Shown in pieces: positions 9,503-34,810 of a DNA stretch of 64,000 nt. Position 1 is the first letter of the stretch; the number at the start of each line of letters is the position of its first letter. The position numbers and the translations under genes were made by a program. The stretch spans positions 1 through 64,000 of the forward strand of contig NZ_CADIJW010000030.1 in assembly GCF_902859745.1 (NCBI RefSeq). Direction: 5' to 3'. The stretch comes from Achromobacter dolens. GTDB lineage: Bacteria; Pseudomonadota; Gammaproteobacteria; Burkholderiales; Burkholderiaceae_B. Under the pieces are notes generated by a model, which saw only the letters and a list, made by a program, of their open reading frames with translations, was not told the origin of the DNA and made no database searches.

Positions 9503-9507
9503 GGACG

Positions 9508-11268: not shown

Positions 11269-11289
11269 GGGACAAGCCGGACGGGATCG

Positions 11290-11919: not shown

Positions 11920-11957
11920 GGAAACTCCTTGCTGTACTGAAAACGCAATCCGACAGC

Positions 11958-12761
11958 TTACTTGGTTGCGGGGTTGGCGACCGGCGCGGCCGCGCCCTTG
12001 GCCTTGGCGGCGTCGTCCTCGTCGTCCTCGTAGTTGGGCAGGCTGGATTCGTCATCGACGCGCTGGCCGTTGACCATCGCGGCGCGGCGCTGCAGGTAGG
12101 CGTCGCGCACGAAGCTGTACGGGTCGAGCGCCACGCGGTCGATGGTGTCGGTGGCGTTGAGCAGGCTGGCGCGCGTGTCGACCACTTCCAGGCCCCACAG
12201 CGAATTGCGCAGGGCCACGTTGTCGATGGCGCTCACGCCCATGTAGCCGCGCATGCGGCCCTGCCAGTCGCCGACCAGGCCGACGCCATCACGCACGCTC
12301 GCCGAGCCGAAGAACGGCAGCACCAGGTACGGCCCCTGGCTGAAGCCCCAGACGCCCAGCGTGGTGCCGAAGTCGTTCGGGATCTTGCGCGCGCCGTTGG
12401 CCGAGGCGACGTCGAAGCAGCCGCCCACGCCCATGGTGGTGTTGAACAGGAAGCGGCCGAGCGTGTTGACGAAGTCGTGGCCGCGACCCTGCAGGAAGCT
12501 GTTGGTGCCCGACCAGAGATCGCCGACGTTGCTGAAGATGTTGTGGACGCAACTGCGCACGGGTTCCGGCGTGACGTAGGTGTAGGCCTGCGCCACCGGC
12601 TTGAAGACCGCGCGGTCGACCGTGTCGTTGAACTTGTACACGCCGCGGTTGAAGCCTTCCCAGGGATCGCGCGGATCCGGGTGCTGCGGCGCGGCGCAGC
12701 CCGCCATCAGTGCGCCGGCGGCGGCGACGGTGGCAATGCGGGAAAGAGCTTTCGTGTTCAT
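11958..12761 (-). CDS. mlaA: MlaA/VacJ outer-membrane lipoprotein
   Basis: MlaA is the outer-membrane lipoprotein that extracts misplaced phospholipids from the outer leaflet. The lipobox LMAG-C places the lipidated cysteine at residue 22. The family motif DPWEGFNRGVYKFND begins about 10 residues later, followed by the GRFLFNTTMGVGG and GPYLVLPFFGSASVRD blocks. The 267-residue protein has an acidic then Ala/Lys-rich low-complexity tail from about 240. Unlike in E. coli, mlaA is inside the mla operon, between mlaD and mlaC. Confidence 0.94.
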   Translation of the reverse strand: MNTKALSRIATVAAAGALMAGCAAPQHPDPRDPWEGFNRGVYKFNDTVDRAVFKPVAQAYTYVTPEPVRSCVHNIFSNVGDLWSGTNSFLQGRGHDFVNTLGRFLFNTTMGVGGCFDVASANGARKIPNDFGTTLGVWGFSQGPYLVLPFFGSASVRDGVGLVGDWQGRMRGYMGVSAIDNVALRNSLWGLEVVDTRASLLNATDTIDRVALDPYSFVRDAYLQRRAAMVNGQRVDDESSLPNYEDDEDDAAKAKGAAAPVANPATK

Positions 12762-12852
12762 GATCAGGGCATCCCTATCAGCAGATTTCTATTTTTATTG
12801 CAGCGTGCGGCGCGTCAAGCTTCGGGTTGTTGCCGGGCGTGACGGGTCCTCT

Positions 12853-13353
12853 TCAATTCGGGGCTTTCGCGTCGGGCGCGCCAGCCGCGTTCGTGCCTTC
12901 CTTCTCGGCCGAGCCGTACAGGAACTTGCTGATGAGCTGTTCCAGCACCACGGCGCTTTGGGTATAGCGGATTTTGCCACCCTCGGCCAGATTGTCGTCT
13001 TCGCTGCCCGGCGTCAGGCCCAGGTACTGCTCGCCGAGCAGGCCCGAGGTGAGAATGGCCGCGGAAGAGTCCTTGGGGAACTGGTAGGCGGTTTCCAGGT
13101 TCATCGCGACGACCGCCTGGAAGGTCTTGTCGTCGAAGGAGATCTTGGAGATCCGGCCCACCACGACCCCGGCGCTTTTCACGGGCGCGCGCACTTTGAG
13201 GCCGCCTACGTTATCGAAATTGGCCGTCAGCGTATAGGTGGGGGCAAAAGAAAAGGTGCTCAAGTTGCCGGCGCGCAACGCCAGGAACGCCAGCGCGGCC
13301 GCGCCCAGCAAGACGAACAGGCCTACCCAGAAATCGGTTTTTTCGCGAGACAT
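12853..13353 (-). CDS. mlaD: MlaD MCE-domain lipid transport protein
   Basis: MlaD is the inner-membrane-anchored MCE protein whose hexameric ring carries lipid between MlaC and MlaFE. The 166-residue form starts MSREKTDFWVG, has one N-terminal transmembrane helix (about 9-26) and a single MCE domain containing FDNVGGLKVRAPVKSAGVVVG. Another ATG at 13377 would overlap mlaE by 11 bases; the MSREK start matches the usual family N-terminus. The C-terminal tail is Ala/Gly-rich. Confidence 0.93.
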   Translation of the reverse strand: MSREKTDFWVGLFVLLGAAALAFLALRAGNLSTFSFAPTYTLTANFDNVGGLKVRAPVKSAGVVVGRISKISFDDKTFQAVVAMNLETAYQFPKDSSAAILTSGLLGEQYLGLTPGSEDDNLAEGGKIRYTQSAVVLEQLISKFLYGSAEKEGTNAAGAPDAKAPN

Positions 13354-13366
13354 GATCGATCCGTAA

Positions 13367-14155
13367 TCAGTTTCCAAACATCAAGGCGGTCAGCAGGAAG
13401 TCCAGCCCCAGCACCGCCAGCGAGCCCACCACCACCGTGCGGGTGGTGGCGCGGGCGACGCCTTCGGGGGTGGGCTTGGCCTGCCAGCCTTCGTAAAGCG
13501 CCACCAGCGTCACCGTGACGCCGAAGACCAGGCTTTTGATGACGCCGTTCAGGACGTCGTTCCAGACATCGACGCCGCCCTGCATCTGCGACCAGAAGGC
13601 GCCGGCATCGACCCCGATCATCAGCACGCCGACCACCCAGCCGCCCAGGATGCCCACCATGGAGAACACGGCGGCCAGGATCGGCATGGCGATGATGCCG
13701 CCCCACAGGCGCGGCACCAGCACGCGGCGCATCGGGTCGACGGCCATGACTTCCATGGCCGACAGTTGTTCGCCCGCCTTCATCAGGCCGATCTCGGCGG
13801 TCAGCGAGGTGCCGGCACGGCCGGCGAACAGCAGCGCGGTCACGACCGGCCCCAGTTCGCGCACCAGCGACAGCGCCACCAGCAGGCCAAGCGATTCCTC
13901 GGCGCCGTAGCGGTTCAGCGTGTAATAGCCCTGCAGGCCCAGCACGAAGCCCACGAACATGCCGGACACGGCGATGATCAGCAGCGAAAAGTTGCCGATG
14001 AAATGAATTTGCTGCGACACCAACCGCGGCCGCGACAGCGCGATGCCGCTGCGGGCCAGCATGGCGCCGAAGAAACGGGTGAAGTAGCCGATGCCGGCGA
14101 TGCGGGTGCGCACCCAGCCGCCCAGCGCGCTCACGGCGTTGTTGGATCCGCTCAT
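13367..14155 (-). CDS. mlaE: MlaE lipid ABC transporter permease
   Basis: MlaE is the inner-membrane permease of the Mla phospholipid transporter (TRAP/YrbE family). The 262-residue protein has about five to six hydrophobic segments and the family block [27 protein letters not shown] followed by [16 protein letters not shown], which contacts the ATPase. Start and mlaF stop overlap as ATGA (14152-14155). The start at MSGSNN is chosen on that overlap. Confidence 0.94.
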
Positions 14156-20303: not shown

Positions 20304-21221
20304 TCAACGCAAGTTGTCGGTGCCACGCGGCACGGCATACGCGTGGCGGAAATAGTCGCGCACCGCGCGCATCGGGCCGGTGATGTCCGCGCCCTTGCGC
20401 CACGCCAGCCCCACGTTCATCGGCGGGATCGGATCCTTCAACTGGATGGTCTCGATGCGCCGGCCTTCCAGCGACCACGGCCGATAGACCATGTCCGACA
20501 GCACCGCCACGCCGCCGCCATTGGCCACCATGCTGCGCACCGCTTCCACCGAAGAGGTGCGCAGGCGCACGTCGGGGCGGAACGGCGTCTCGCTCCAGTA
20601 CCGCAGTGCGGTGTGCGCGGCCTCGTCGACGGTCAGCATGATGAACGGTTCATGCGCCACGTCTTCCAGCGTGACAGTGTCGCGCGCCAGCAGCGGATGG
20701 CGCGCCGGCACCCACAGCCGCCGCGGCGAGCCGAAGAAATGCTCGACGGCCAGTTCCGGGTTCACCACGTTCGAGGTCAGCAGCACCGCCATGTCGTAGC
20801 GGTGTGCGATCAAGCCTTCCTCGATGGCGTTGCGGTTCAGTTCGTGAAGTTGGATGTCCAGGTTGGGATAGAGCTGCGACAGGCGCTGCAGGTGGTACGG
20901 CAGGAAGTAGCCGATCACGGTATAGGACGCAGCCAGCAGCAACCTCCCGCTCTCGCGACCGTCGGCGCTGGGCATGCGCAGCGCCTCGTCGACCGACGAC
21001 AGGATGTTGTAGGCGTGGTTGAGGAAGCCGCGCCCGGTCTCGGTCAACGCCACGCCGCTGGCACTGCGCTGGAACAGCGGCGAGCCCACGATCTCCTCGA
21101 GTTCGCGGATGGCGGTGGTGACGGCGGATTGCGAGATCGCCAACTGGATCGCCGCCTGCGAGATCTGCCCGAGTTCGGCGGCCGCGACGAAATACTTGAG
21201 CTGCCGGAGGGTAAGCGACAT
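20304..21221 (-). CDS. LysR-family regulator divergent from the pxp module
   Basis: A 305-residue LysR regulator with the helix-turn-helix at about residues 4-62 (LRQLKYFVAAAELGQISQAA, SQSAVTTAIRELE). It also has a CysB/NodD-like effector domain, with a GYFLPYHLQRL segment and a well-preserved second lobe. It is divergent from pxpA with 258 bases between them. That gap contains several palindromes suited to LysR binding, so it is the likely activator of the pxp/biotin/permease genes. The inducer is unknown. Confidence 0.92.
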   Translation of the reverse strand: MSLTLRQLKYFVAAAELGQISQAAIQLAISQSAVTTAIRELEEIVGSPLFQRSASGVALTETGRGFLNHAYNILSSVDEALRMPSADGRESGRLLLAASYTVIGYFLPYHLQRLSQLYPNLDIQLHELNRNAIEEGLIAHRYDMAVLLTSNVVNPELAVEHFFGSPRRLWVPARHPLLARDTVTLEDVAHEPFIMLTVDEAAHTALRYWSETPFRPDVRLRTSSVEAVRSMVANGGGVAVLSDMVYRPWSLEGRRIETIQLKDPIPPMNVGLAWRKGADITGPMRAVRDYFRHAYAVPRGTDNLR

Positions 21222-21230
21222 GGCGGCAAT

Positions 21231-21245
21231 ATCTGATTAATAGAT
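21231..21245. promoter_or_regulatory. LysR-type ATCT-N7-AGAT palindrome
   Basis: ATCTGATTAATAGAT lies 10 bases before the LysR start codon. It has the T-N11-A dyad layout of LysR-family sites and is placed where autorepression would occur. Confidence 0.4.
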
Positions 21246-21296
21246 AGTCAGCCACCAGAATATCTGTTTATCCGCGCCATGGGGGTGCGCCGAATC

Positions 21297-21312
21297 TCAG
21301 GGAAATCCCTGA
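21297..21312. promoter_or_regulatory. Perfect palindrome TCAGGG-AAAT-CCCTGA
   Basis: A 16-base dyad with 6-bp perfect arms in the middle of the LysR-pxpA gap. A second CCCTG/CAGGG inverted pair follows at 21336-21362. The repeated CCCTGA half-site points to a dimeric regulator; the divergent LysR protein is the natural candidate. Confidence 0.45.
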
Positions 21313-21335
21313 AATTTCATAGGAATCCGGTAATC

Positions 21336-21362
21336 GCCCTGATTTGGTGCGTAATGCAGGGC
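21336..21362. promoter_or_regulatory. Second GCCCTG / CAGGGC inverted repeat upstream of pxpA
   Basis: The arms GCCCTG (21336-21341) and CAGGGC (21357-21362) share the half-site of the palindrome at 21297. They sit just upstream of a weak promoter-like TTGATC (21383) to TATCCC (21405) pair with a 16-base spacer that could drive pxpA. Confidence 0.35.
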
Positions 21363-21479
21363 ATCAAAAATTCAGATAACCGTTGATCCGAAAAAAGAAC
21401 TTTTTATCCCTCGGGCGCTTCGCTACTGTGCAGGCATTGCGCGGGCCACCGGCCCGCAGATGGAAGGAGATCCTGTTTC

Positions 21480-22250
21480 ATGAGCAAGGCGACGATAGAC
21501 CTGAACTCCGACATGGGCGAGGGATTTGGTTCCTGGAAGATCGGCGATGACGTCGACGACGCCATCATGCCGCTGATCAGCTCGGCCAACATCGCCACGG
21601 GCTTTCACGCCGGCGATCCCAACATCATGAACCGCACCGTGGTGATGGCGCGCGAGCATGGCATCGGCATCGGCGCGCATCCCGGCTTTCGCGACCTGGT
21701 CGGCTTCGGCCGCCGCGATCTGAACGAGAACGCCGAGGGCCTGGTCAACGACATCGTCTACCAGGTCGGCGCGCTGCGCGAATTTGCCCGCCTCTATGGC
21801 CTGCGGCTGCAGCACGTCAAGCCGCATGGCGCGCTCTACATGCGCGCCGCGCGCGACGAAACCCTGTCGCGCCGCCTGGTGCAGACGCTGCGCGACCTGG
21901 AGCCCACGCTGATGCTGTATTGCATGGAGAACTCGCTGACCTGCAAGGTGGCGCGCGAGCTGGGCCTGCCGGTGGTGCGCGAGTTCTACGCGGACCGCGA
22001 CTACGACGCCAGCGGCTCGATCGTGTTCACGCGCTACACCCAGGCGCTCGATCCGGAGCAGGTGGCCGACAAGGTGCTGCGCGCGTGCACCGACGGCAAG
22101 GTGCGCACCGTGGATGGCCGCGACATTCCGATCGGCTTCGACTCTGTCTGCATCCACAGCGACACCCCCGGCGCGCTGGCGCTGGTGCAGGCCACCCGCG
22201 CCCGCCTGGAGGCGCACGGCATCCGCATCGCGCCGCCGCGGCTGTCCTGA
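21480..22250 (+). CDS. pxpA: 5-oxoprolinase subunit A (PxpA, LamB/YcsF family)
   Basis: PxpA belongs to the LamB/YcsF family, which with PxpB and PxpC forms an ATP-dependent 5-oxoprolinase in bacteria. The 256-residue protein opens with [13 protein letters not shown] and has the metal-site motifs GFHAGDP, GAHPGF and KPHGALY. The usual NIACGFHAGD is [10 protein letters not shown] here, a cysteine-to-threonine change. A good Shine-Dalgarno (AAGGAG) precedes the ATG. It leads a six-gene run containing biotin carboxylase parts, so the true substrate may be a lactam or related cyclic amide rather than 5-oxoproline. Confidence 0.9.
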
Positions 22251-22289
22251 TCCGCCCATCATTCCCATACATTCCAAGGAGAAAACCCC

Positions 22290-22532
22290 ATGTCGCAGCA
22301 AGAAATCCAGAGCCCCCTGCCCGGCACCTTCTACCGCCGTCCCAGTCCCGACGCCGCGCCGTTCGTCGAGGTGGGCGCCGCCATCCAGCCCGGCGACGTG
22401 GTCGGCATCGTCGAGGTGATGAAGCAGTTCAACCAGATCGAGGCCGAGATCGGCGGCGTGGTCGCCGAGATCCTGGTGGCCGACGGCGACCCGGTCGAAC
22501 CCGGCCAGGCGCTGCTGCGGATCGAGGGCTGA
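22290..22532 (+). CDS. Stand-alone biotin carrier protein (BCCP-like)
   Basis: An 80-residue biotinyl domain with no extra N-terminal region. The biotin-accepting lysine is K45 in EVMKQFN, differing from the EAMKM motif of acetyl-CoA carboxylase. Two half-barrel repeats surround it (PGDVVGIVEV and GDPVEPGQALLRIEG). Biotin protein ligase would have to be supplied from elsewhere. It sits 39 bases after pxpA and 3 bases before a biotin carboxylase gene, so the two proteins should form a carboxylase half-reaction pair. Confidence 0.9.
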   Translation: MSQQEIQSPLPGTFYRRPSPDAAPFVEVGAAIQPGDVVGIVEVMKQFNQIEAEIGGVVAEILVADGDPVEPGQALLRIEG

Positions 22533-22535
22533 GGC

Positions 22536-23924
22536 ATGGGCGTGCATTCCTTCTACCGGCCGCGCCGCATCCATACCCTGCTGGTCGCCAACCGCGGCGA
22601 GATCGCGCTGCGGGTCATTCGCGCCGCGCGCGAGCTGGGCATGCGCACAGTGGCGGTCTATAGCGACGCCGACCGCGACGCGCTGGCGGTGCGCCTGGCC
22701 GACGCGGCGGTGCACATCGGACCGGCGCACGCCACGCGCAGCTATCTCAACGCCGAGGCCCTGCTGGCGGCGGCGCGCGAGAGCGGCGCCGACGCGATCC
22801 ACCCGGGCTACGGCTTCCTGGCCGAGAACGCCGACTTCTCGCAGGCCGTGACCGACGCCGGCCTGGTGTTCGTTGGTCCCGATGCGCGCACCATCCGCAG
22901 CATGGGCGACAAGGCTGCCGCGCGCGCCTGCGCCAAGGCGGCGGGCGTGCCGACGGTGCCGGGCAGCGAGGGCGTGGTGGGCTCGCTGGACGAGGCCCTG
23001 AGCCATGCGGCGCAGATCGGCTATCCCCTGATGATCAAAGCCAGTGCCGGCGGCGGCGGCCGCGGCATCCGCGTGGCCGCCGACGAGGCGCAACTGCGCG
23101 AAGCCATTCCCCTGGCCCAGGCCGAGGCGCGCGCCGCGTTTGGCGATGGTGGCGTTTACCTGGAGCGCTACCTGCCGCGCGCCCGTCATATCGAGGTGCA
23201 GGTGCTGGGCGACGGCGAGCGCGCGGTGCACCTGTTCGAGCGCGAATGCTCGCTGCAGCGCCGCCGCCAGAAGGTGTTCGAGGAAGCGCCGTCGCCGGCG
23301 CTGAGCCCCGCGCTGCGCCAGGCGCTGTGCGAATCGGCGCTGCGCCTGACCGAATCGGTGGGCTATCGTGGCGCCGGCACGCTGGAATACCTGTACGACG
23401 AGACCCGCGGCGAGTTCTACTTCATCGAGATGAACACGCGCATCCAGGTCGAGCATCCCATCACCGAGGCCATCACCGGCATCGACCTGGTGCGCGAGAT
23501 GCTGCGCATCGCCGATGGCGAGCCGCTGCGTTTCAAGCAAGCGGACATCGTCATGCGCGGCGCCGCCATCGAATGCCGCCTGAACGCCGAAGACCCGGCG
23601 CGCAACTTCGCGCCGGGCCCCGGCACCGTGTCGCACGTGCGCTGGCCGGCCGGTCCGGGCGTGCGCATTGACTCGATGGTGTATGCCGGCAGCGTGGTGC
23701 CGCCCTATTACGATTCGCTGCTGGCCAAGTTGATCGTGTGGGACGAGGACCGCGACGCCGCGCTGGCTCGCATGGCGCGCGCGCTGGACGAAACCGAATT
23801 CGAAGGCGTGCCGTCGACGCTGTCCCTGCATCGCGCCCTGGTGGCCGACGCGGGCGTGCTGGCGGGCGACTATCACACCAACTATCTGGAAAGCTGGATG
23901 CAGCAGCGGGAGGGGACCCAATGA
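22536..23924 (+). CDS. Biotin carboxylase subunit (AccC-like)
   Basis: A 462-residue ATP-grasp biotin carboxylase that makes carboxybiotin from bicarbonate and ATP. Visible motifs are the N-terminal TLLVANRGEIALRVIRAA, the nucleotide lid MIKASAGGGGRGIRV, the adenine/bicarbonate block FIEMNTRIQVEHPITE and AIECRLNAEDP. It is probably not the housekeeping AccC, because it is embedded between pxpA and pxpB and coupled to pxpB by an ATGA overlap (23921-23924). It most likely serves the adjacent small biotin carrier. Confidence 0.92.
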   Translation: MGVHSFYRPRRIHTLLVANRGEIALRVIRAARELGMRTVAVYSDADRDALAVRLADAAVHIGPAHATRSYLNAEALLAAARESGADAIHPGYGFLAENADFSQAVTDAGLVFVGPDARTIRSMGDKAAARACAKAAGVPTVPGSEGVVGSLDEALSHAAQIGYPLMIKASAGGGGRGIRVAADEAQLREAIPLAQAEARAAFGDGGVYLERYLPRARHIEVQVLGDGERAVHLFERECSLQRRRQKVFEEAPSPALSPALRQALCESALRLTESVGYRGAGTLEYLYDETRGEFYFIEMNTRIQVEHPITEAITGIDLVREMLRIADGEPLRFKQADIVMRGAAIECRLNAEDPARNFAPGPGTVSHVRWPAGPGVRIDSMVYAGSVVPPYYDSLLAKLIVWDEDRDAALARMARALDETEFEGVPSTLSLHRALVADAGVLAGDYHTNYLESWMQQREGTQ

Positions 23925-24796
23925 CGGTGCGCTACACCCATGGCGGCGATGAGTTCATCTTCGCCGAGATCAGCGAATCGATGTCGCTGGCCGCGTTCTT
24001 CAAGGGCATGGCGATCACGCGCGCGCTGCGCGAACGCGCCGTGCCCGGCGTCACCGAGATCTGCCCGGCCAACGCCTCGTACCAGATCCGCTACGACCCC
24101 GAGCAGGTCGCGCCCGAGGCCATGCTGGCCATCCTGCGCGATATCGAGGCCACCATCGACCTGGACAACCTGCGGCTCGACACCCGCGTCATCCAGGTGC
24201 CGGTGCTCTACAACGACCCCTGGACCCACGAGACGCTGATGCGCTTTCGCGAGCGCCACCAGGACCCCGACTCGACCGACCTGGAATACGCGGCGCGCAT
24301 CAACGGCTTTGCCGATACCGATGCATTCATCGCCGCGCATTCCAGCGCGCCGTGGTTCGTGTCGATGGTCGGCTTCGTGGCCGGGCTGCCGTTCATGTTC
24401 CAGATGGTCGAACGCGAACGCCAGTTGGAAGTGCCCAAGTACCTGCGGCCGCGCACCGACACGCCCAAGCACACGGTGGGACATGGCGGTTGCTTCGCCT
24501 GCATCTATTCCGTGCGCGGCGCGGGCGGCTACCAGATGTTCGGCGTGACGCCGGCGCCGATCTTCGAGCCCGCGCAGCGCCAGGCGCACCTGCGCGACTC
24601 GATGGTGTTCTTCCGTCCCGGGGACATCGTCAAGTTCAAGCCGATCAGCCGCGGCGAGTACGACGCCGCGGTGGCGCGGGTCGAGGCCGGCACCTTCCAG
24701 CTCGACATCCGTCCCGTGTCGTTCTCGCTGTCCGAATTCATGGCGGCGCCCGAACAGTACAACGCCCGCCTTCTGGAGACGCTCCATGTCGCATGA
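23921..24796 (+). CDS. pxpB: 5-oxoprolinase subunit B / AHS1 domain protein (PxpB-like)
   Basis: A 291-residue member of the KipI/AHS1 family, longer than E. coli PxpB (218 residues). The C-terminal half has the family core, with GFVAGLPFM, GHGGCFACIYSVRGAGGYQMFG and RPGDIVKFKPI. The N-terminal 90 residues hold the small alpha/beta domain. AHS1 and AHS2 domains also form the carboxyltransferase part of urea carboxylase, which fits the neighbouring biotin carboxylase and carrier. The end overlaps pxpC by 11 bases. Confidence 0.88.
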   Translation: MTVRYTHGGDEFIFAEISESMSLAAFFKGMAITRALRERAVPGVTEICPANASYQIRYDPEQVAPEAMLAILRDIEATIDLDNLRLDTRVIQVPVLYNDPWTHETLMRFRERHQDPDSTDLEYAARINGFADTDAFIAAHSSAPWFVSMVGFVAGLPFMFQMVERERQLEVPKYLRPRTDTPKHTVGHGGCFACIYSVRGAGGYQMFGVTPAPIFEPAQRQAHLRDSMVFFRPGDIVKFKPISRGEYDAAVARVEAGTFQLDIRPVSFSLSEFMAAPEQYNARLLETLHVA

Positions 24797-25775
24797 CGAA
24801 CCGCTCATCGAAGTGATCAAGCCCGGGCTGGCGACGTCGGTCCAGGATCGTGGCCGCCAGGGCTACTACCACCTGGGCATTCCACCCTCGGGCGCGCTGG
24901 ACCAGTACGCGCTGGCCGCCGCCAACCTGCTGGTGGGCAACCCCGAGGACGCGGCGGTGCTGGAATGCACGCTGATGGGGCCCGAACTGCGCTTCACCCG
25001 CGCGGCGGTGATCGCCGTCACCGGCGCCACCATGACGCCCAAGATCGATGGCCAGGCACAGGCCTGCAACACCGCGCTGGCGGTGCCGGCCGGCGCCAGG
25101 CTGTCATTCGATTTCGTGCAGGCCGGCGCGCGCGCCTGCCTGGCGATCGCCGGCGGCATCGACGTGCCCGAGGTGCTGGGTAGCCGCTCGACCTACACGC
25201 TGGGCGCCATCGGCGGCTTCGAGGGCCGCCGCCTGCAGGCCGGCGACCGCTTGCGCGTGGGCGCGCCGCGCCCCGGGACGCGGGTCGGCCGCGCGCTGCC
25301 GGCGGCGCTCGCCAGCGAGTGTCCGAAGGAACAGGTGCTGCGCGTGGTGCCGGGCCTGTACGACCATCGCCTGATGCCGGAATCGGCCGCATCGTTCTAC
25401 GAAGACGCCTGGAGCGTGACCTCCGAGGCGGACCGCATCGGCTACCGCTACAAGAAGGGCCGCGCGCTGAAGTTCCAGCCGCGCGAACAGCCGTTCGGCG
25501 CCGGCGCCGATCCGTCCAACATCGTCGACGCCTGCTATCCCATTGGTTCGATCCAGGTGCCGGCGGGGGTGGAACCCATCATCCTGCATCGCGATGCCGT
25601 GTCCGGCGGCGGCTACGCCATGATCGGCACCGTGATCAGCGCGGACCTCGACAAGGTCGGCCAGATGCAGCCCAACCAGCAGGCCCGCTTCGAGCGGGTC
25701 ACGCTGGAGACGGCCTTGCAGGCCCGCAAGGACTACCGCGCCCGCCTCGAGCGGCTGCGCGCCGCCCTGGGCTGA
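24786..25775 (+). CDS. pxpC: 5-oxoprolinase subunit C / AHS2 domain protein (PxpC-like)
   Basis: A 329-residue KipA/AHS2 family protein. Key blocks are the N-terminal IKPGLATSVQDRGRQGYYHLGIPPSGALD, the middle LAIAGGIDVPEVLGSRSTYTLGAIGGFEGR, and the late SEADRIGYR followed by GSIQVPAGVEPIIL. With PxpB it forms either the 5-oxoprolinase ATPase/kinase module or, as suggested by the biotin genes here, a carboxyltransferase. It overlaps pxpB by 11 bases, indicating stoichiometric production. Confidence 0.9.
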   Translation: MSHDEPLIEVIKPGLATSVQDRGRQGYYHLGIPPSGALDQYALAAANLLVGNPEDAAVLECTLMGPELRFTRAAVIAVTGATMTPKIDGQAQACNTALAVPAGARLSFDFVQAGARACLAIAGGIDVPEVLGSRSTYTLGAIGGFEGRRLQAGDRLRVGAPRPGTRVGRALPAALASECPKEQVLRVVPGLYDHRLMPESAASFYEDAWSVTSEADRIGYRYKKGRALKFQPREQPFGAGADPSNIVDACYPIGSIQVPAGVEPIILHRDAVSGGGYAMIGTVISADLDKVGQMQPNQQARFERVTLETALQARKDYRARLERLRAALG

Positions 25776-25811
25776 TCTCCGCCCCGCTTTCCCGTTGATT
25801 GCCGCTTTCCT

Positions 25812-25851
25812 TCCGGCCCGTTCCGACGGGCCGGACGGGCGCGCTCGCGCC
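25812..25851. other. Tandem GC-rich hairpins between pxpC and the permease gene
   Basis: A 10-bp perfect stem (TCCGGCCCGT / ACGGGCCGGA, loop TCCG, 25812-25835) is followed 2 bases later by a 6-bp perfect stem (GGCGCG / CGCGCC, 25838-25851). No T-tract follows. The pair could stabilise the upstream message or attenuate expression of the permease. Confidence 0.4.
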
Positions 25852-25928
25852 TGTGCATTTGAGTTTCACACGCTGCACGCCGTACCCGTCCGCATTCCGC
25901 GGTTCTTCAGCACGTCAGGAGAGCCTCC

Positions 25929-27266
25929 ATGGCCAACCTTGCTTCCAGCTCCTCGTCCTCCGACCGGGACACTTCCCTAGCCACCGTGGCCGATGCCGAC
26001 CGCATGGGCCGATTCCCGCTCACCATGGCCTGGTGGGCCGTGTGCAGCGCCATCTTCTACATCGTGGTCGGCGCCACGCTGGCGCTCAACTACGGCGCCC
26101 GCAACGCCATCATCGGCATGGTGCTGTCGGTGATTTCCTATGGCCTGATCAACGCCGTGATCTCGCGTTACGCCATCCGCACCGGCCAGTCGGTGGCGCT
26201 GTTCTCTCGCAGCGTGTTCGGCACCTCGGGCGCGGCGCTGGCCACCCTGATCTTCTTTGCCACCGCCATCTATTACGCCGTGTTCGAGGGCTCGGTGATG
26301 GCGGTCGCCGCGCACCACATGTTCCCGGCCGTGCCCTACTGGGCCTTCGCGCTGCTGGTGGTCGTCTACAGCGTGCTGCTGATCTTCGGCAGCGTGCAGC
26401 GCTGGCTCGACAAGTTCAACGGCGTGCTGCTGCCCTTCTACCTGGGCGGCCTGCTGCTGGCAGTGGCGCTGGCCACGCGCGAGTACGGCTACAGCGACGC
26501 CTGGCTGGCATTCGGCCCGGCCGGAGGGCCGGTGGCGGGCGGCTGGTGGGACGCCTACGTGTACTACATGGGCGTGTGGATCCTGATGATGTTCACCTTC
26601 GACTACGCGCGCTTCGGCCGCCGCGAAGACGCGCGCTACCACGGCCGCTACAACTTCGGCATGCCGTTCTACCTGGTGACCTTCCTGCTAAACGGCGTGG
26701 CCGGCATCTACCTGGTCGCCATCATTCCCGGCGATGGCGCCCTGAGCGAAGTGTCGGTGGTGCTGGCGCTGCTCAAGCTGATGGGGCTGGGCGGCCTGTT
26801 CTTCGTCTGGGTGACGCAGACCCGCATCAATACCGCCAACTACTACCTGGCCACCATCAACATGCAGGCCTTCTTCGCGCGCTTCGGCCGAGCGCGCCTG
26901 TCCAAGGCCGCCTGGGCGGTGATCGTGGGCGCGGTGTCATACGCGCTGATGCTGTTCGACGTGTTCGCCTATCTGCTGCAGGCGCTGGCCTACCAGGGCA
27001 TCTTCGTGGTGGCGTGGGTCGCCGTGGCGCTGGTGCACATCCTGGCGGTGGACGAAGCCGCGCCGACGCCAGGCGGGGGCAGCGCCTACAACCGCCGCGG
27101 CCTCGGCGCCTGGTTCGCGGGCGCGGCCAGCGGCCTGGTGCTGATGCACCTGAACGGCGTTGCGGCGACCTTCGCGGCGCCGGCCAGCTTTGTGGTGGCG
27201 GGCGCGGTGTACTGGCTGGGGCAGGCGGCGGTCTCGGGGCCGCGCATGCAGCGCGGCGGCGCCTAG
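25929..27266 (+). CDS. NCS1-family nucleobase/hydantoin-type permease
   Basis: A 445-residue inner-membrane permease with about 12 hydrophobic helices of the purine/cytosine permease (NCS1) family. The first helix region FPLTMAWWAVCSAIFYIVVGATLALNYG and the QTRINTANYYLATINMQAFFARF block are typical. NCS1 carriers move nucleobases, allantoin, hydantoins and related cyclic amides by cation coupling. It is last in the pxp/biotin run (153-base gap containing hairpins), so it probably imports the substrate of those enzymes. Confidence 0.85.
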   Translation: MANLASSSSSSDRDTSLATVADADRMGRFPLTMAWWAVCSAIFYIVVGATLALNYGARNAIIGMVLSVISYGLINAVISRYAIRTGQSVALFSRSVFGTSGAALATLIFFATAIYYAVFEGSVMAVAAHHMFPAVPYWAFALLVVVYSVLLIFGSVQRWLDKFNGVLLPFYLGGLLLAVALATREYGYSDAWLAFGPAGGPVAGGWWDAYVYYMGVWILMMFTFDYARFGRREDARYHGRYNFGMPFYLVTFLLNGVAGIYLVAIIPGDGALSEVSVVLALLKLMGLGGLFFVWVTQTRINTANYYLATINMQAFFARFGRARLSKAAWAVIVGAVSYALMLFDVFAYLLQALAYQGIFVVAWVAVALVHILAVDEAAPTPGGGSAYNRRGLGAWFAGAASGLVLMHLNGVAATFAAPASFVVAGAVYWLGQAAVSGPRMQRGGA

Positions 27267-27300: not shown

Positions 27301-27828
27301 TCAGGCCAGCGCGGCCAGGAACACGAGCGCGCCCAGCGCCAGCATGAGGAAGGGGCTGATGCGCGTGTAGACCAGCGCCAGCGTGGAGACCGCGGCCACG
27401 CCCCAGGCCCAGGCGCCGCCTTCGGCGGCCCGCAGTACCGTGCACGACGAGGCCAGGATCATGCCGGCGGCCACCGGCACCAGGCCCGCCTCGATGGCGC
27501 GGACGCAGGTGGCCTGGCGGTAGCGCGCCCAGACCCGCGCCAGCGCGTAGATCAACAGCGAGCAGGGCAGGAAGATCGCGATCGACGCGGCAATCGCGCC
27601 CAGCCACCCGCCCACCTGCCAGCCGATCAGCGTCACCAGCAGCGACGCCGGGCCCGGCGTGATGCGGGACAGCGCAAAGTAATCCAGGAACTGCGATTCG
27701 CTGATCCAGCCATAGCTGTCCACCGCCTGGCGGTGGATGTCGGGCAGGATGCTCTGGCCGCCTCCGACCGTCAGGAACGACAGCGGCGTGAACACCGAGA
27801 ACAGGTCGTGCAGCGTGGCCAGGTTCAT
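27301..27828 (-). CDS. Chromate transporter, C-terminal-half protein (ChrA family)
   Basis: A 175-residue short-chain CHR protein with five to six hydrophobic segments. It has the family motif FLTVGGGQSILPDIHRQAV near the N-terminus, followed by LSRITPGPASLLVTLIGW. Short CHR proteins work as pairs with opposite topology, and the partner gene overlaps upstream as ATGA (27825-27828). The likely role is chromate or oxyanion transport; the substrate is not proven by sequence. It converges with the permease gene, with 34 bases between stops. Confidence 0.85.
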   Translation of the reverse strand: MNLATLHDLFSVFTPLSFLTVGGGQSILPDIHRQAVDSYGWISESQFLDYFALSRITPGPASLLVTLIGWQVGGWLGAIAASIAIFLPCSLLIYALARVWARYRQATCVRAIEAGLVPVAAGMILASSCTVLRAAEGGAWAWGVAAVSTLALVYTRISPFLMLALGALVFLAALA

Positions 27829-28403
27829 GGTTGCCGCTCCCGGCGCCGCAGCCGCGCGTAGGCGATGCCGATCGACAGGGGCGCCATCGCGCCCACCACC
27901 CACAGCAGCGGCAGGCGCAGCAGGAAGATGGCGGCGAAGGTCGCGCCCATGACGGCGGCCGGCACCCAGCCCTGCAGCGCGCGCCGGGCGGCGCGCAGGC
28001 CGGTCTGCAGCGACACCCCGACCGCCGCCGCCGCCACGCCCGCCATGGCCACGTGCAGGCCCTGCGACTGCGCCATGCTGGCGAACAGCGCGGCCGCGCC
28101 GATGGCCACCAGCATCGGCGGCACGGTGATGCCCAGGCCGCCCAGCAGCGCGCCGGCGCCGCCGCGCAGGCGAAAGCCGATCCAGATGGCCAGGTTCACC
28201 ACGTTCACGCCCGGGAACGACTGCGCCAGCGCCAGGCCGCTGAGGAAATCGGCTTCGGACAGCCAGCGCCGCTGCTGCACGAATTCGCGCATCATCCAGC
28301 CGCTCAGGCCGCCGCCGAAACTGGTCAGGCCGACCTTGGCGAAGGCCAGGAAAATCTGCGGCAGTGTCGGCGGGGCGGCAACGGCGGGGTCAGCGGAGGA
28401 CAT
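27825..28403 (-). CDS. Chromate transporter, N-terminal-half protein (ChrA family)
   Basis: The 192-residue partner of the short-chain chromate transporter pair. The CHR signature FAKVGLTSFGGGLSGWM is followed by LALAQSFPGVNVVNLAIWIGFRLRG, and about five membrane segments follow. It ends in a basic RLRRRERQP tail. The start MSSADP follows the 143-base non-coding gap after gltD. Bi-component ChrA transporters like this are common in Betaproteobacteria. Confidence 0.85.
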   Translation of the reverse strand: MSSADPAVAAPPTLPQIFLAFAKVGLTSFGGGLSGWMMREFVQQRRWLSEADFLSGLALAQSFPGVNVVNLAIWIGFRLRGGAGALLGGLGITVPPMLVAIGAAALFASMAQSQGLHVAMAGVAAAAVGVSLQTGLRAARRALQGWVPAAVMGATFAAIFLLRLPLLWVVGAMAPLSIGIAYARLRRRERQP

Positions 28404-28546: not shown

Positions 28547-30013
28547 TCAGCGCGGCAAGTCGCTCGACCCCATCAGGTAGGCGTCCACCGAGCGCGCGCA
28601 CTGGCGGCCTTCGCGGATGGCCCAGACCACCAGCGACTGGCCGCGACGCATGTCGCCGGCGGTGAAGACCTTTTCCACGTTGGTGCGGTAGTCGTCGGTG
28701 TTGGCGCGCACGTTGCCGCGCGCGTCGCGGTCGACGCCGAAGGCATCCAGCACGGCCTGCACGGGCGACACGAAGCCCATGGCAAGCAGCACCAGGTCGG
28801 CCTTGATCTCGAATTCCGAGCCTTCGACCTCGCGCATCTTCATCTGGCCGGTCGATTCATCCTTGAACCACTCGACGCGGGCGCCGACCAGCTTCTCGAC
28901 CTTGCCGTTGCTGCCCTTGAGCAGCTTGGTGGTCACCGACCAGTCGCGTTCGCAGCCTTCCTCGTGCGAGGACGAGGTGCGCATCTTCAGCGGCCAGTAG
29001 GGCCAGGTCATGGCCTTGTTCTCGGACTCGGGCGGCTGCGGCAGCAGTTCGAACTGGGTGACCGAGGCGGCGCCATGGCGGTTGCTGGTGCCGACGCAGT
29101 CGGAACCGGTGTCGCCGCCGCCGATCACCACCACGTGCTTGCCCTTGGCCAGCGTCTGGTTGGTGAGGCGGTCGCCCGCCACGGCCTTGTTCTGCTGGCG
29201 CAGGAAGTCCATGGCGAAATAGACGCCCGACAGCTCGCGGCCCGGCACCGGCAGGTCGCGCGGGGTTTCCGAACCGCCGCTCATCACCACGGCGTCGAAT
29301 TCGGCCAGCAGCGAGTCCGGGGTGCGCACGGTCAGGCCGTCGGCCACCGGGTCGGTCGGCTTGCCGACGTAGGTCGAGGGCGCGAATTCCACGCCTTCGG
29401 CTTCCATCTGCGAGATGCGGCGGTCGATCTGGTGCTTTTCCAGCTTGAAGTCGGGGATGCCGTAGCGCAGCAGGCCGCCGATGCGGTCGCTCTTCTCGAA
29501 CAGCGTCACCGAGTGGCCGGCGCGCGCCAGTTGCTGCGCGCAGGCCAGGCCGGCGGGGCCGGAGCCCACCACGGCGACCTTCTTGCCGGTCTTGCGCGCC
29601 GGCACTTGCGGCGTCACCCAGCCCTCGGCCCAGCCCTTGTCGATGATGGCGTGCTCGATGGACTTGATGCCCACGGCGTCGCTGTTGATGTTCAAGGTAC
29701 AGGCAGCCTCGCACGGCGCCGGGCAGATGCGGCCGGTGAATTCCGGGAAGTTGTTGGTGGAGTGCAGCACGTCCAGCGCGCGGCGCCAGTCCTGCTTGTA
29801 CACCAGGTCATTCCAGTCGGGGATGATGTTGTTGACCGGGCAGCCGTTGTTGCAGAACGGGATGCCGCAGTCCATGCAGCGCGCCGCCTGCTGCTTGGCC
29901 TGGTCGTCGGTCAGGTGCAGCACGAATTCGCGCCAGTTCTTCAGCCGCTTCTGCGGGGCCTCGGAGGCCTCCTGCAGGCGCTGGTATTCCATAAAGCCGG
30001 TAATCTTTCCCAT
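28547..30013 (-). CDS. gltD: Glutamate synthase small subunit GltD
   Basis: GltD passes electrons from NADPH through FAD and iron-sulfur clusters to GltB. The 488-residue protein has the N-terminal cysteine clusters [20 protein letters not shown] and CPAPCEAAC, an FAD-binding [14 protein letters not shown] and the NADPH-binding [14 protein letters not shown]. It begins 8 bases after gltB, so the two are co-translated. The MGKITGF start gives the canonical length. Confidence 0.96.
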
Positions 30014-30021
30014 GGTATCCC

Positions 30022-33000
30022 TCACGCAGCCAGTTGTTGCGGGTTGGCTGCACGCCACATTTCACCCAATGCGCGGCGGTAGTCCGTCGGCATGACCTTT
30101 ACGAATTTGCCGCGCGAGGCTTCCCAGTCGCCCAGGATTTCGCGGGCGCGGAAGCTGCCGGTGTAGCGGAAGTGGTCTTCCACCAGGCGGCGCAGGATGG
30201 CTTCATCCGTCTCGCGCTCGCCGCCGCGCTGCGCGCTGTGCCAGACGTCGATGTTGTTCTGGGCCTGCTGTTCCGCGTGCGGCAGCACGGCTTCCAGTTC
30301 GACCATCGACAGGTTGGCGCGCTGCTTGAGCGTGCGTTCCGGATCCCACACGTACGCCACGCCGCCCGACATGCCGGCGGCGAAGTTGCGGCCGGTGGCG
30401 CCCAGCACTACCACGGTGCCGCCCGTCATGTATTCGCAGCCGTGGTCGCCGGTGCCTTCCACGACCGTGGCGGCGCCCGAGTTGCGCACCGCGAAGCGTT
30501 CGCCGGCCACGCCGTTGAAGAAGGCCTCGCCCGCCAGCGCGCCGTACAGGACGGTGTTGCCGGCAATGATGTGGTCGGGGCCGAAGCCGCGGAAGTCATT
30601 GGGCGAGCGCACGATGATGCGGCCGCCCGACAGGCCCTTGCCGACGTAGTCGTTGCCTTCGCCCACCAGGTCCATGGTGATGCCATGGGCCAGGAACGCG
30701 CCGAAACTCTGGCCGGCGGTGCCGTTGCACTGGATGTGGATGGTGTCGTCCGGCAGGCCGTCGTGGCCGTAGCGCGCGGCCACGGCGCCCGACAGCATGG
30801 CGCCGATGGTGCGGTTGCGGTTGCGCACCGGCACGATGAACGAGACCTTCTCACCGCGCTCCAGCGCCGGCTTGCTGCGCTCGATCAACTGGTGGTCCAG
30901 CGCGCCGGCCAGGCCATGATCCTGTTCTTCGGTCTGGCGCACTTCGGCATCGGACTGCGTCTGGTGGAACACGCGGGTGAAGTCCAGGCCCTGCGCCTTC
31001 CAGTGCTCGACGCCCGAGCGCATGTCCAGCAGGTCGGCGCGGCCGATCAGGTCGTCGAACTTGCGGATGCCCAACTGGGCCATGATCTCGCGCACTTCCT
31101 CGGCGATGAAGAAGAAGAAGTTGACGACGTGCTCGGGCTTGCCCTGGAACTTCTTGCGCAGCACCGGATCCTGCGTGGCCACGCCCACCGGGCAGGTGTT
31201 CAGGTGGCACTTGCGCATCATGATGCAGCCTTCGACGACTAGCGGCGCCGTGGCGAAACCGAATTCGTCGGCGCCCAGCAGCGCGCCGATGACGACGTCG
31301 CGGCCGGTCTTCATCTGGCCGTCGGCCTGCACGCGGATGCGGCTGCGCAGGCGGTTCAGCACCAGCGTCTGCTGGGTTTCGGCCAGGCCCAGTTCCCAGG
31401 GCGTGCCGACGTGCTTGATGGACGAGACCGGCGAGGCGCCCGTGCCGCCGTCATGGCCGGCGATCACGACGTGGTCGGCCTTGGCCTTGGCCACGCCCGC
31501 GGCCACCGTGCCGACGCCGACTTCCGACACCAGCTTGACCGAGATCGAGGCCTTGGCGTTGACGTTCTTCAGGTCGTGGATCAGTTGCGCCAGGTCTTCG
31601 ATCGAGTAGATGTCGTGGTGCGGCGGCGGCGAGATCAGGCCCACGCCCGGCACCGAGTAGCGCAGCTTGGCGATGTACTCCGAGACCTTGTGGCCCGGCA
31701 ACTGGCCGCCTTCGCCGGGCTTGGCGCCCTGCGCCATCTTGATCTGGATCTGGTCGGCCGACGACAGGTACTCGGCGGTGACGCCGAAGCGGCCGGAGGC
31801 CACCTGCTTGATCTTCGAGCGCAGCGAGTCGCCCTTCTTGAGCGCGACGTCGGCTTCGATGCGTTCGGAGCCGAGCACCGAGGCCAGCGTGTCGCCGTCC
31901 TTGATGGTGCTGCGGCCTTCGCGCATTTCGGCGCGGTAGCGCAGTTCGTCTTCGCCGCCTTCGCCGGTGTTGGACTTGCCGCCGATGCGGTTCATGGCCA
32001 CGGCCAGCACCGAGTGGGCCTCGGTCGAGATCGAGCCCAGCGACATGGCGCCGGTGGCGAAGCGCTTGACGATGTCCTTGGCCGGCTCGACGTCATCGAG
32101 CGGGATGGCGCGCGACGGATCGAAGCGGAACTCGAACAGGCCGCGCAGCGTCATGTGGCGGCGGCTCTGGTCGTTGATGATCTGCGCGTACTCCTTGTAC
32201 GTGCGGTAGTTGTTGGCGCGCGAGGCGTGCTGCAGCTTGGCGATGGAATCCGGCGTCCACATGTGCTCTTCGCCGCGCACGCGGTAGGCGTACTCGCCGC
32301 CCGCTTCGAGGTCGTTCGCCAGGACCGGGTCGCTGCCGAAGGCGGCGCGGTGCTGGCGCAGCGCTTCCTCGGCCACCTGGAAGATGCCGATGCCTTCGAT
32401 GTTGGAGGCGGTGCCGGTGAAGTACTTGTTCACCAGGCTGCTCTGCAGGCCGACCGCTTCGAAGATCTGGGCGCCGGTGTAGGACATGTAGGTGGAGATG
32501 CCCATCTTGGACATCACCTTGTTCAGACCCTTGCCGATTGCCTTGATGAAGTTCTTGACGGCCTTTTCCGGGTCGCTCATCTTGCCCAGCGATTCCAGCG
32601 CCAGGTAGGGGTGGATGGCTTCGGCGCCATAGCCGCCCAGCAGCGCGAAGTGGTGCACTTCGCGGGCCGAGCCGGTTTCCACCACCAGGCCGGTGTTGGT
32701 GCGCAGGCCGGCTCGGATCAGGTGCTGGTGCACCGCCGAGGTGGCCAGCAGGGCGGGGATGGCCACGCGCTCGCTGTCGACCAGGCGGTCCGATACGATC
32801 AGGATGTTGTAGCCGCTTTGCACCGCGTCCACGGCGCGCGCGCACAGCGCGGCCACGCGGGCTTCGATGCCCTCGGGGCCCCAGGCGGCCGGGTAGGTGA
32901 TGTCCAGCTCGAAGCTGCGGAATTTCTTGCCCGTCACCTGCTCGATGTCGCGGATCTGCGCCATGGCGGCGAAGTCCAGCACCGGCTGCGACACTTCCAG

Positions 33001-34761
33001 GCGCAGCGGCGGGTTGACGTTGTTGATGTCCAGCAGGTTGGGCTTGGGGCCGATGAACGACACCAGCGACATCACCATCTGCTCGCGGATCGGGTCGATC
33101 GGCGGGTTGGTGACCTGGGCGAACAACTGGCGGAAATAGTTGTAGAACGGCTTGGCGCGGTCGGACAGCACGGCCAGCGGGGCGTCGTTGCCCATCGAGC
33201 CGATCACTTCCTCGCCGGTCGAGGCCATGGGTTCGAGGATGAACTTGTAGTCTTCCTGGGTCCAGCCGAAGGCCTGCTGGCGATCCAGCAGCGACACCGA
33301 CGATTGCGTGGCGACGGCGGCCTGGCGCGGGGCCGGCAGCGATTCCAGCTTGATCTGCAGGCGTTCGATCCACTGGCGGTACGGACGGCTGTTGGCCAGT
33401 TGCAGCTTGATCTCGGCGTCGTCGATGATGCGGCCCTGTTCCAGGTCGATCAGGAACATCTTGCCCGGCTGCAGGCGCCACTTCTTGACGATGCGGTTCT
33501 CGGGGATCGACAGGGTGCCGGCTTCCGAGGCCAGGATGACCATGTCGTCGTCGGTCACCAGGTAGCGCGCCGGGCGCAGGCCGTTGCGGTCGAGCGTGGC
33601 GCCGATCTGGCGGCCGTCGGTGAACGCGACCGCGGCGGGGCCGTCCCACGGCTCCATCATGGCGGCGTGGTATTCGTAGAAGGCGCGCCGGCTTTCGTCC
33701 ATCTGCGTGTGCTGTTCCCAGGCTTCCGGGATCATCATCATCATGGCGTGGGCCAGCGAGTAGCCCGAGTTCACCAGCAGTTCCAGGCAGTTGTCGAACG
33801 TGGCGGTGTCCGACTGGCCTTCATAGACGATGGGGTACAGCTTCTTCAGGTCGTCGCCCAGCACGGCCGACTGCATCATGCCTTCGCGGGCGCGCAGCCA
33901 GTTGAAGTTGCCCTTGACCGTGTTGATTTCGCCGTTGTGGGCGATCATGCGGTACGGGTGGGCCAGCGGCCAGGCCGGGAAGGTGTTGGTCGAGAAGCGT
34001 TGGTGCACCAGCGCCAGCGCCGACACGGTGCGCGGATCGGCCAGGTCGCGGTAGTAGCGGCCGACCTGGTCGGCCAGCAGCAGGCCCTTGTAGACCACGG
34101 TGCGCACCGAGGCCGAGGGCACGAAGTATTCCTTGCCGTGCGCCAGGTGCATGTTCTGAATGGCGTGGCTGGCGGTCTTGCGGATCACGTACAGCTTGCG
34201 TTCGAGCGCGTCGGGCACCATCACATCGGCGCCGCGGCCGATGAACAACTGGCGGATCACGGGTTCGCAGTCGCGCACGGTGGGCGACATCGGCATGTCG
34301 ACGTCCACGGGCACGTTGCGCCAGCCCAGCACGACCTGGCCCTCGGCGCGCACCGAGCGCTCCAGTTCCTGTTCGCAGGCCAGGCGCGAGGCGGTTTCCT
34401 TGGGCAGGAACACCATGGCCACGCCGTATTCGCCGGGCGGCGGCAGGGTGATGCCGTGCTGGGCGAACTCGTCGCGATAAAGCGTGTCCGGGATCTGGAT
34501 CAGGATGCCGGCGCCGTCGCCCATCAGCTTGTCCGCGCCCACCGCGCCGCGGTGATCGAGGTTTTCCAGGATCTTCAGGCCCTGCTGGATGATGGCGTGG
34601 CTTTTCTTGCCCTTGATGTGCGCCACGAAGCCCACGCCACAGGCGTCATGCTCGTTATTGGGGTTGTACAGGCCCTGGGCCGGCGGCAGGCCGATGCGGC
34701 TGGCATCGATCGGGGTCGCCTTGGGGGTGGGACAGGATTCGTTCGGGGTGATTTGGGGCAT
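30022..34761 (-). CDS. gltB: Glutamate synthase large subunit GltB
   Basis: GltB uses glutamine and 2-oxoglutarate to make two glutamates. At 1579 residues it is full length. The class II glutaminase nucleophile is C41 ([11 protein letters not shown]), exposed after removal of a 40-residue propeptide. The FMN-binding GOGAT domain includes [14 protein letters not shown] and [21 protein letters not shown]. The 3Fe-4S cysteines appear as [17 protein letters not shown] near residue 1185, and the C-terminal GXGXG helix domain is intact. A promoter is proposed at 34811-34839. Confidence 0.97.
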
Positions 34762-34810
34762 GGCGCGCTCCGCAGTAAGACTGCGTTCTAATGTTGCAGT
34801 GCAGGAACGG

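Follow-up and report, generated by a model that had tools for sequence, protein, structure and literature searches.

A pxpABC cluster with its own biotin carboxylase and biotin carrier in Achromobacter dolens: a candidate biotin-dependent lactam-opening system

PxpA, PxpB and PxpC alone constitute an ATP-dependent 5-oxoprolinase, and the AHS1 and AHS2 domains, to which PxpB and PxpC belong, also form the carboxyltransferase domain of urea carboxylase. In Achromobacter dolens, both themes meet in a gene cluster located on contig NZ_CADIJW010000030.1 (assembly GCF_902859745.1), of which we analysed positions 1 to 64,000, hereafter the window. The original prediction, made from the sequence alone, described a divergent LysR-type regulator gene followed by pxpA, genes for a stand-alone biotin carboxyl carrier protein (BCCP) and a biotin carboxylase (BC), pxpB, pxpC and a permease gene, with short overlaps between frames. 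The coordinates agree with this order (Table 1); the BC and PxpB frames share the ATGA at 23921-23924, and the PxpB and PxpC frames overlap by 11 bases (24786-24796). Codon 45 of the BCCP reads AAG and lies within the motif EVMKQF, in accordance with the lysine proposed at this position. Additionally, the proposal that all four urea carboxylase parts occur here as separate proteins beside PxpA is borne out by Pfam, which recovers each domain; the matches of PxpA, BCCP, BC, PxpB and PxpC all exceed the gathering cut-offs.

Table 1. Features of the cluster and of its control region, in window coordinates
Feature	Position	Strand	Description
LysR-family regulator	20304-21221	-	305 aa; divergent; Pfam HTH_1 and LysR_substrate
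LysR-pxpA intergenic control region	21222-21479	.	TATCTG/CAGATA elements; weak
PxpA / LamB_YcsF hydrolase subunit	21480-22250	+	256 aa; PF03746, 306 bits
Stand-alone BCCP	22290-22532	+	80 aa; PF00364 Biotin_lipoyl, 63 bits; NF005457 PRK07051, 130.7 bits (cut-off 87)
Biotin carboxylase (BC)	22536-23924	+	462 aa; three Pfam biotin-carboxylase domains; NF009471 PRK12833, 830.9 bits (cut-off 686)
PxpB/AHS1-like carboxyltransferase subunit	23921-24796	+	291 aa; CT_C_D, 134 bits; K173
PxpC/AHS2-like carboxyltransferase subunit	24786-25775	+	329 aa; CT_A_B, 308 bits; TIGR00724, 277.7 bits (cut-off 230.2)
NCS1-like permease, putative lactam importer	25929-27266	+	445 aa; PF02133 matches of family members

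PxpA passes the 5-oxoprolinase subunit model NF003814 with 306.4 bits (cut-off 226). PxpB scores 117.5 bits with the urea_carbox model and 75.8 bits with the PxpB model TIGR00370, below the cut-off of 145.55, and its best sequence match in the PDB is a urea carboxylase. PxpC reaches 220.9 bits with NF045499 (PxpC_5OPro), short of the cut-off of 500. The single-chain urea carboxylase model TIGR02712, with a cut-off of 1303.85, is passed by none of the separate proteins (BC 554.6, PxpB 117.5, PxpC 249.5 and BCCP 29.8 bits).

To follow the cluster through other genomes, we considered the best 80 of at least 565 stretches that matched a PxpB profile in species genomes (numbered loci below), a set of stretches that may include urea carboxylases. 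These were complemented with 16 plasmid regions, hand-picked from 90 records matching at 1e-30, many of which showed a BC beforehand, and with 17 control loci of ordinary pxpBC, all from the order of the window and with pxpA inside the stretch in 16 cases, where the label "ordinary" was assigned by sequence likeness. Several stretches, among controls and relatives alike, end at contig edges. Only four of the 77 PxpA proteins found in the 80 loci are less than 50% identical to that of the window.

BC lies near pxpB-pxpC in 53 of the 80 loci, namely in all 41 outside Pseudomonas and in 12 of the 39 within it. BCCP accompanies BC in 50 of the 53, and in the other three (L069, L079 and L082) the contig stops at or inside BC. 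Both genes are present in 16/16 of the chosen plasmid regions, at times in a different arrangement: BC is inverted and BCCP follows pxpC on two Haladaptatus plasmids, and the order on a Rubrobacter plasmid is BC (opposite strand), pxpB, pxpC, pxpA and BCCP. The persistence of the five parts together despite these rearrangements is strong evidence of joint function and rules out a chance neighbourhood; as judged from gene context, a tie of BC and BCCP to pxpABC is supported in Pseudomonadota, Actinomycetota and Halobacteria. The cluster is uncommon among close relatives, being detected in 18 of 268 genomes of the family, including that of the window (E 1e-32), and in 14 of 399 genomes of the order (E 1e-36), and is therefore an accessory gene set.

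Sequence motifs of BCCP and BC recur across the loci. EVMK, which contains the expected biotinylation lysine K45, occurs in 50/50 of the BCCPs found among the 80 loci, and RRxQKxxEEAP and FxEMNxRxQVEH are kept in 53/53 BCs. A tree of 89 BCs groups 50 of the 56 cluster BCs in a single clade (support 100/100) separate from AccC; those of the distant loci L159 to L161 join the BC of the urea-carboxylase-like protein of the A. dolens genome, and those of Rubrobacter and two Haladaptatus take no resolved position. Recruitment of BC perhaps took place on more than one occasion. The NCBIfam models matched by BC and BCCP are both named for acetyl-CoA carboxylase. The BC frame of one Pseudomonas locus (L123, 7632-8900) appears interrupted, with 360 residues and a separate frame of 77, which might reflect incipient loss of BC or an error in sequencing. 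Two of the distant loci hold a four-gene split carboxylase in the order BC-AHS1-AHS2-BCCP (L160, 7627-11104; L161, 8332-11817), with the AHS1 lysine described below and a urea-carboxylase-like BC; PxpA was not found in either stretch.

A further indication comes from the carboxyltransferase. In the urea amidolyase of Kluyveromyces lactis (KlUA), residue K1605 is described as the most likely candidate for the essential general base in carboxyl transfer; the K1605A substitution severely inhibits the enzyme (PMC5770610). K173 of the window PxpB aligned with this residue. A lysine occupies the position in all 92 aligned rows of cluster-type or split-carboxylase proteins and in the urea-carboxylase-like protein of the genome, as well as in 35/35 of loci L159 to L193, which partly overlap those rows. 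Arginine was found instead in the two other AHS1 proteins of the genome, in 17/17 ordinary PxpB controls and, based on structure-derived sequences, in 2phc, KipI (2zp2), YbgJ (5dud) and the AHS1 proteins of 9yx5 and 3mml. These alignments support the view that the window carboxyltransferase keeps the putative catalytic lysine of urea carboxylase.

Taking these observations together, we propose that a biotin-dependent, lactam-opening enzyme of five subunits is encoded here, together with its importer and regulator. BC would use ATP and bicarbonate to carboxylate the biotin on K45 of BCCP, and the PxpB-PxpC carboxyltransferase, in which K173 of PxpB would act as the general base, would use it to carboxylate an omega-lactam at its ring nitrogen; the likeliest such substrate is 2-pyrrolidinone (gamma-butyrolactam). 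The resulting N-carboxylactam would be an activated, imide-like amide that PxpA could hydrolyse, and the carbamate so formed would shed CO2 to give gamma-aminobutyrate (GABA), or 5-aminovalerate if the substrate were 2-piperidinone. In several lineages, the neighbouring genes gabT and gabD encode enzymes that would then convert GABA to succinate. We infer the chemical steps, the substrate and the role in import, and we assign the reading as a whole a probability of about 0.5. Its parts differ in strength: biotin-dependent carboxyl transfer by PxpBC is probable, a lactam nitrogen as the acceptor has somewhat better than even odds, and the specific version in which carboxybiotin N-carboxylates 2-pyrrolidinone and PxpA opens it to GABA, a biotin-dependent lactamase, is tentative, falling just short of an even chance. 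The earlier suggestion that carboxybiotin activates a ring nitrogen and PxpA opens the ring fits the split machine, the lysine and the gene context, and its general chemistry is the reading with the best support; what has changed is the substrate, narrowed from a lactam or hydantoin-like compound to an omega-lactam.

The narrowing of the substrate is based on neighbouring genes. A GABA transaminase gene (gabT) was found in eight of the 80 loci, in six lineages: Variovorax (three loci), Rhodoferax, Acidovorax, Hydromonas, one Pseudomonas and one delta-proteobacterial metagenome-assembled genome. Succinate-semialdehyde dehydrogenase (gabD) stands alongside gabT in five of the eight, and locus L081 ends in a partial frame of that family. 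Among plasmids, gabT and gabD occur in three of the 16 regions (gabT by annotation): immediately behind pxpC in Agrobacterium sp. T29, behind an ABC transporter gene and a regulator gene in Aestuarium, and, in Ruegeria TM1040, upstream in the opposite orientation. The distant locus L159, whose PxpB is 35% identical to that of the window, also has both genes. The GABA transaminase model TIGR00700 was passed by all four transaminases tested from the eight loci and by all seven linked transaminases tested overall, and no such gene was found in the 17 control loci. Twelve of these genomes hold 14 GabT proteins (at least 56% identity), from which about 0.26 occurrences in 80 stretches would be expected by chance, against the eight seen; the Poisson probability of six or more lineages with gabT is 4e-7 on the assumption, only roughly true, that loci are independent. 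The linked copy is the only close GabT in four of five gab-linked genomes examined. On the strength of this linkage, the product is probably GABA, which points to 2-pyrrolidinone. These recurrent catabolic neighbours point to a plain omega-lactam yielding GABA (or 5-aminovalerate), not to a hydantoin or pyrimidine.

Biotin-synthesis genes also recur, in nine of the 80 loci and one of the 16 plasmid regions, and in four arrangements: five Burkholderia loci have bioADFB upstream of the cluster, three Pseudomonas loci have bioB-bioF-bioH-bioC-bioD on the downstream side, Glaciimonas has bioB on that side, and an Acidiphilium plasmid carries bioB behind pxpC. Family models confirmed one BioB and one BioF, and the remaining bio genes were named by eye or by record annotation; none was found in the 17 control loci. 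Considering both groups of neighbours, gab or bio genes lie near 17 of 53 BC-bearing and none of 27 BC-less loci (Fisher 4e-4), an association confounded by kinship because every BC-less locus is Pseudomonas.

The transporter is less informative. The NCS1 family carries nucleobases, allantoin and hydantoins, and an NCS1 permease had been taken as support for a cyclic amide substrate. The window permease has no sequence match in Pfam, NCBIfam or the PDB; PF02133 (NCS1) is matched by seven of 12 permease orthologues, with a best E of 1.3e-6, and the window member is among the five without a match. Profile comparison with two NCS1 proteins encoded in the same genome gave a weak alignment of 90 N-terminal columns (hhalign probability 22, E 0.001). 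The family label is a borderline one, based on the orthologues and this weak comparison. A permease of this type is present in 28 of the 80 loci, and other loci have TorT-type or Ugp-type ABC transporters. With a borderline label and transporters that differ between loci, the transporter says little about the substrate. In locus L065 (10916-11974) and its relatives, a substrate-binding protein that passes models of TorT, of the trimethylamine N-oxide system, stands beside a sugar-type ABC transporter; it may be a binding protein for the lactam.

The A. dolens genome (6.3 Mb, 114 contigs) contains four CT_A_B genes, including that of the window. One encodes a 1259-residue frame that also has BC and CT_C_D homology and is therefore urea-carboxylase-like; another belongs to an ordinary pxpB-pxpC-pxpA set; and the last is part of an AHS1/AHS2 pair accompanied by pxpA and a spermidine-type ABC transporter, named by eye. 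The window PxpB is 28% identical to the ordinary PxpB and 31% identical to the urea-carboxylase-like domain; the window PxpA is 44.6% identical to the ordinary PxpA. A separate accB-accC is present as well. Because of these other copies, the cluster is not the sole candidate in the genome for a 5-oxoprolinase, a urea carboxylase or an acetyl-CoA carboxylase. In the set with the spermidine/putrescine-type transporter (L014, contig C54, approximately 7400-13950), the transporter lies between pxpA and AHS1/AHS2, AHS1 has arginine at the K173 position, and the adjoining frames, named by eye, resemble a GntR regulator and a hydroxyacid dehydrogenase.

Several observations weigh against the lactam-opening proposal. 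An important exception concerns Pseudomonas, where 27 of the 80 loci, all from this genus (e.g., L092, L104 and L118), lack BC and BCCP, retain LysR-pxpA-pxpB-pxpC and have no permease. In 12/12 of these 27 genomes tested, a dedicated BC was not found elsewhere, although BCCP was not searched genome-wide; each has a BC 53-54% identical to that of the window, and none above 54%, with an AccB-like BCCP adjoining. The BC-less PxpA, PxpB and PxpC are under purifying selection, with median ratios of nonsynonymous to synonymous substitution (dN/dS) of 0.095, 0.053 and 0.093 (15 of the 27 loci), against 0.145, 0.111 and 0.113 in 10 BC-bearing Pseudomonas loci, and K173 is kept in 27/27 BC-less PxpB proteins; the dedicated BC and BCCP are therefore not always needed. 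The BC-bearing P. mandelii locus (L102) nests among BC-less loci, and a quickly built PxpBC tree requires no fewer than four changes between presence and absence of BC, of which two are imposed by branches with good support. The BC-less forms either rely on the housekeeping AccB-AccC or function without biotin. PDB entry 9yx5 holds arginine-type AHS1 and AHS2 together with chains of AccA3, a biotin carboxylase and carrier, so that the lysine/arginine difference may not separate biotin-using from biotin-free forms. The neighbour evidence is also patchy. The cluster of the window has no gabT neighbour, and the gene is absent from 72 of the 80 loci, 13 of the 16 plasmid regions, two of three distant contexts and all 19 contexts from the order and family (at least 45% identity; some stretches are short). 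The haloarchaeal aminotransferases miss E 1e-110 against any GABA transaminase model and pass none of the cut-offs, and we set aside the GABA reading for them. Biotin-synthesis genes are missing from 71 of the 80 loci, 15 of the 16 plasmid regions and all 22 further contexts, and the 0/17 among controls is weak on its own because the controls are few and all come from the window's order.

These points bear directly on the alternatives. It is doubtful that PxpBC-type carboxyltransferases generally borrow carboxybiotin from the housekeeping AccBC, the cluster merely having its own copy and the BC-less Pseudomonas representing the borrowing state. The retained lysine and purifying selection in BC-less loci, with a BC and an adjoining AccB-like BCCP in 12/12 genomes tested, would suit such a state, and the AHS1, AHS2 and AccA3 chains in 9yx5 make it plausible; ordinary PxpBC-type proteins may, by this token, bind a housekeeping biotin carboxylase. 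In Corynebacterium glutamicum, pxpA/pxpT mRNA drops under biotin excess (cg1141 0.5, cg1142 0.4), and cg1142 rises in biotin limitation, according to the text available of that study (PMC3398298); this response might track 5-oxoproline levels rather than biotin. However, ordinary PxpB carries arginine at the position of the base, and our literature search found no paper on 9yx5. The same chemistry applied to another ring, either 2-piperidinone giving 5-aminovalerate or a substituted lactam, is rather unlikely. The GabT and GabD homologues of Pseudomonas also act on 5-aminovalerate and glutarate semialdehyde, and the molybdenum-hydroxylase genes that adjoin the cluster in Diaphorobacter and Rubrobacter could, we infer, convert a cyclic imine or N-heterocycle into a lactam; the passing of TIGR00700 by all seven linked transaminases speaks for GABA, even if such models do not settle the substrate.

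The two remaining alternatives depart further from the proposed chemistry. A biotin-dependent enzyme that carboxylates a cyclic or linear urea, a hydantoin, a dihydropyrimidine or a guanidine compound, and whose product PxpA hydrolyses, would explain why urea carboxylase is both the best PDB match and the best-scoring profile of PxpB, would suit an NCS1-like permease for nucleobases, allantoin or hydantoins, and could accommodate the molybdenum-hydroxylase neighbours and the N-carbamoylsarcosine amidohydrolase gene found approximately 5 kb upstream of pxpA in Pararhizobium. We regard it as unlikely, given that the genome already has a urea-carboxylase-like protein, that the recurrent gabT/gabD neighbours suit the lactam of an omega-amino acid, and that inspection by eye of 25 of the 73 recurrent neighbour families revealed no hydantoinase, dihydropyrimidinase or allophanate hydrolase. 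A visual scan of the frames at 17-31 kb of the window showed no allophanate hydrolase either, family models having been applied to the seven cluster proteins only. Improbable, finally, is an ordinary 5-oxoprolinase, with PxpABC converting 5-oxoproline to glutamate at the expense of ATP and with BC/BCCP carried along as an additional acetyl-CoA carboxylase pair. The glutamate product would not predict gabT/gabD neighbours, PxpB and PxpC fall short of the 5-oxoprolinase cut-offs, K173 is unlike 17/17 controls, BC and BCCP remain with pxpABC through rearrangement, and another pxpBCA and accBC exist in the genome. In its favour are the PxpA model, the persistence of 27 Pseudomonas loci without BC and BCCP, the NCBIfam names of these two proteins and, as far as the accessible text of the report goes, the requirement of C. 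glutamicum for ordinary pxpABC to grow on 5-oxoproline (PMC13274462). A housekeeping acetyl-CoA carboxylase was ruled out by the separate accBC and the separate BC clade, and a plain urea carboxylase by the other copy in the genome and the presence of PxpA. The piperidinone and borrowing alternatives overlap with the main reading, and the likelihoods therefore do not sum to one.

Regarding regulation, the LysR gene adjoins pxpA in most of the 80 loci. The 258-base LysR-pxpA region of the window contains five overlapping matches to the hexamers TATCTG/CAGATA, which we rejected as a LysR operator on account of their inconsistency among relatives, with none in 14 of 73 regions. Downstream of the permease, two short minus-strand frames (27301-28403) resemble a split chromate-type transporter pair and adjoin gltB/gltD-like frames at 28547-34848, all named by eye. 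A TCP-1/cpn60-type chaperonin-like protein lies near the cluster in L187 (3486-4991, from the window's order, PF00118) and in Haladaptatus L167 (385-2154, annotated).

To our knowledge, known biotin carboxylases form C-C bonds or N-carboxylate urea-type compounds. If the lactam-opening proposal is correct, biotin would serve hydrolysis instead of carbon fixation, a new role for the vitamin, and the resemblance of PxpB and PxpC to the carboxyltransferase of urea carboxylase would be explained. The monomers of nylon-4 and nylon-5 are gamma- and delta-lactams, and an enzyme able to open the stable gamma-lactam would offer a way of degrading nylon-type lactams. It would also correct gene names, given in records as acetyl-CoA carboxylase, allophanate hydrolase or 5-oxoprolinase subunit, and provide a direct test of whether ordinary PxpABC also uses biotin. 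No description of the five-gene system was among the titles listed by searches of the open-access literature, subscription journals being mostly outside that scope; new in this analysis are the linkage to gabT/gabD and biotin synthesis in some lineages, the catalytic lysine and the Pseudomonas exception.

The PxpABC 5-oxoprolinase (YbgJKL; KipI/KipA/YcsF) shares with the window cluster the joint presence of the PxpA, PxpB and PxpC families; the cluster differs by the addition of BC and BCCP, by lysine for arginine in PxpB and by PxpB and PxpC not passing their models. Compared with AccB-AccC, the window BC is 53% identical to the AccC of the genome and the BCCP 53% identical to AccB over 73 residues, but the BC falls in a separate clade, the BCCP motif is mostly EVMKQF instead of the EAMK(M/L) of AccB, and no AccA/AccD carboxyltransferase was found by Pfam among the seven cluster proteins. 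Lombard and Moreira (2011) described an AHS1/AHS2-like pair as split carboxyltransferase halves, often adjacent and of a function unknown to them; the text accessible from that paper mentions neither PxpA (LamB/YcsF) nor a dedicated BC/BCCP beside the pair (PMC3199775). The caprolactamase CapAB and the valerolactamase OplBA, as described in the available parts of two reports, need bicarbonate and ATP to open stable lactams, as proposed here (PMC8453981, PMC11033972). They belong to the hydantoinase/oxoprolinase family and operate without a biotin carboxylase, whereas Pfam finds no hydantoinase A/B domain in the seven cluster proteins. With gamma-butyrolactam, OplBA gave no more than trace activity, and the authors of that report were aware of no earlier enzymatic approach to mild cleavage of gamma-butyro- or delta-valerolactam (PMC11033972). 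Urea carboxylase, the corresponding part of urea amidolyase (PDB 3va7, 5i8i), has the same four parts, BC, BCCP, CT_A_B and CT_C_D, and the same general-base lysine; it is one chain of approximately 1200 residues, whereas the window system consists of four separate proteins joined to a PxpA hydrolase.

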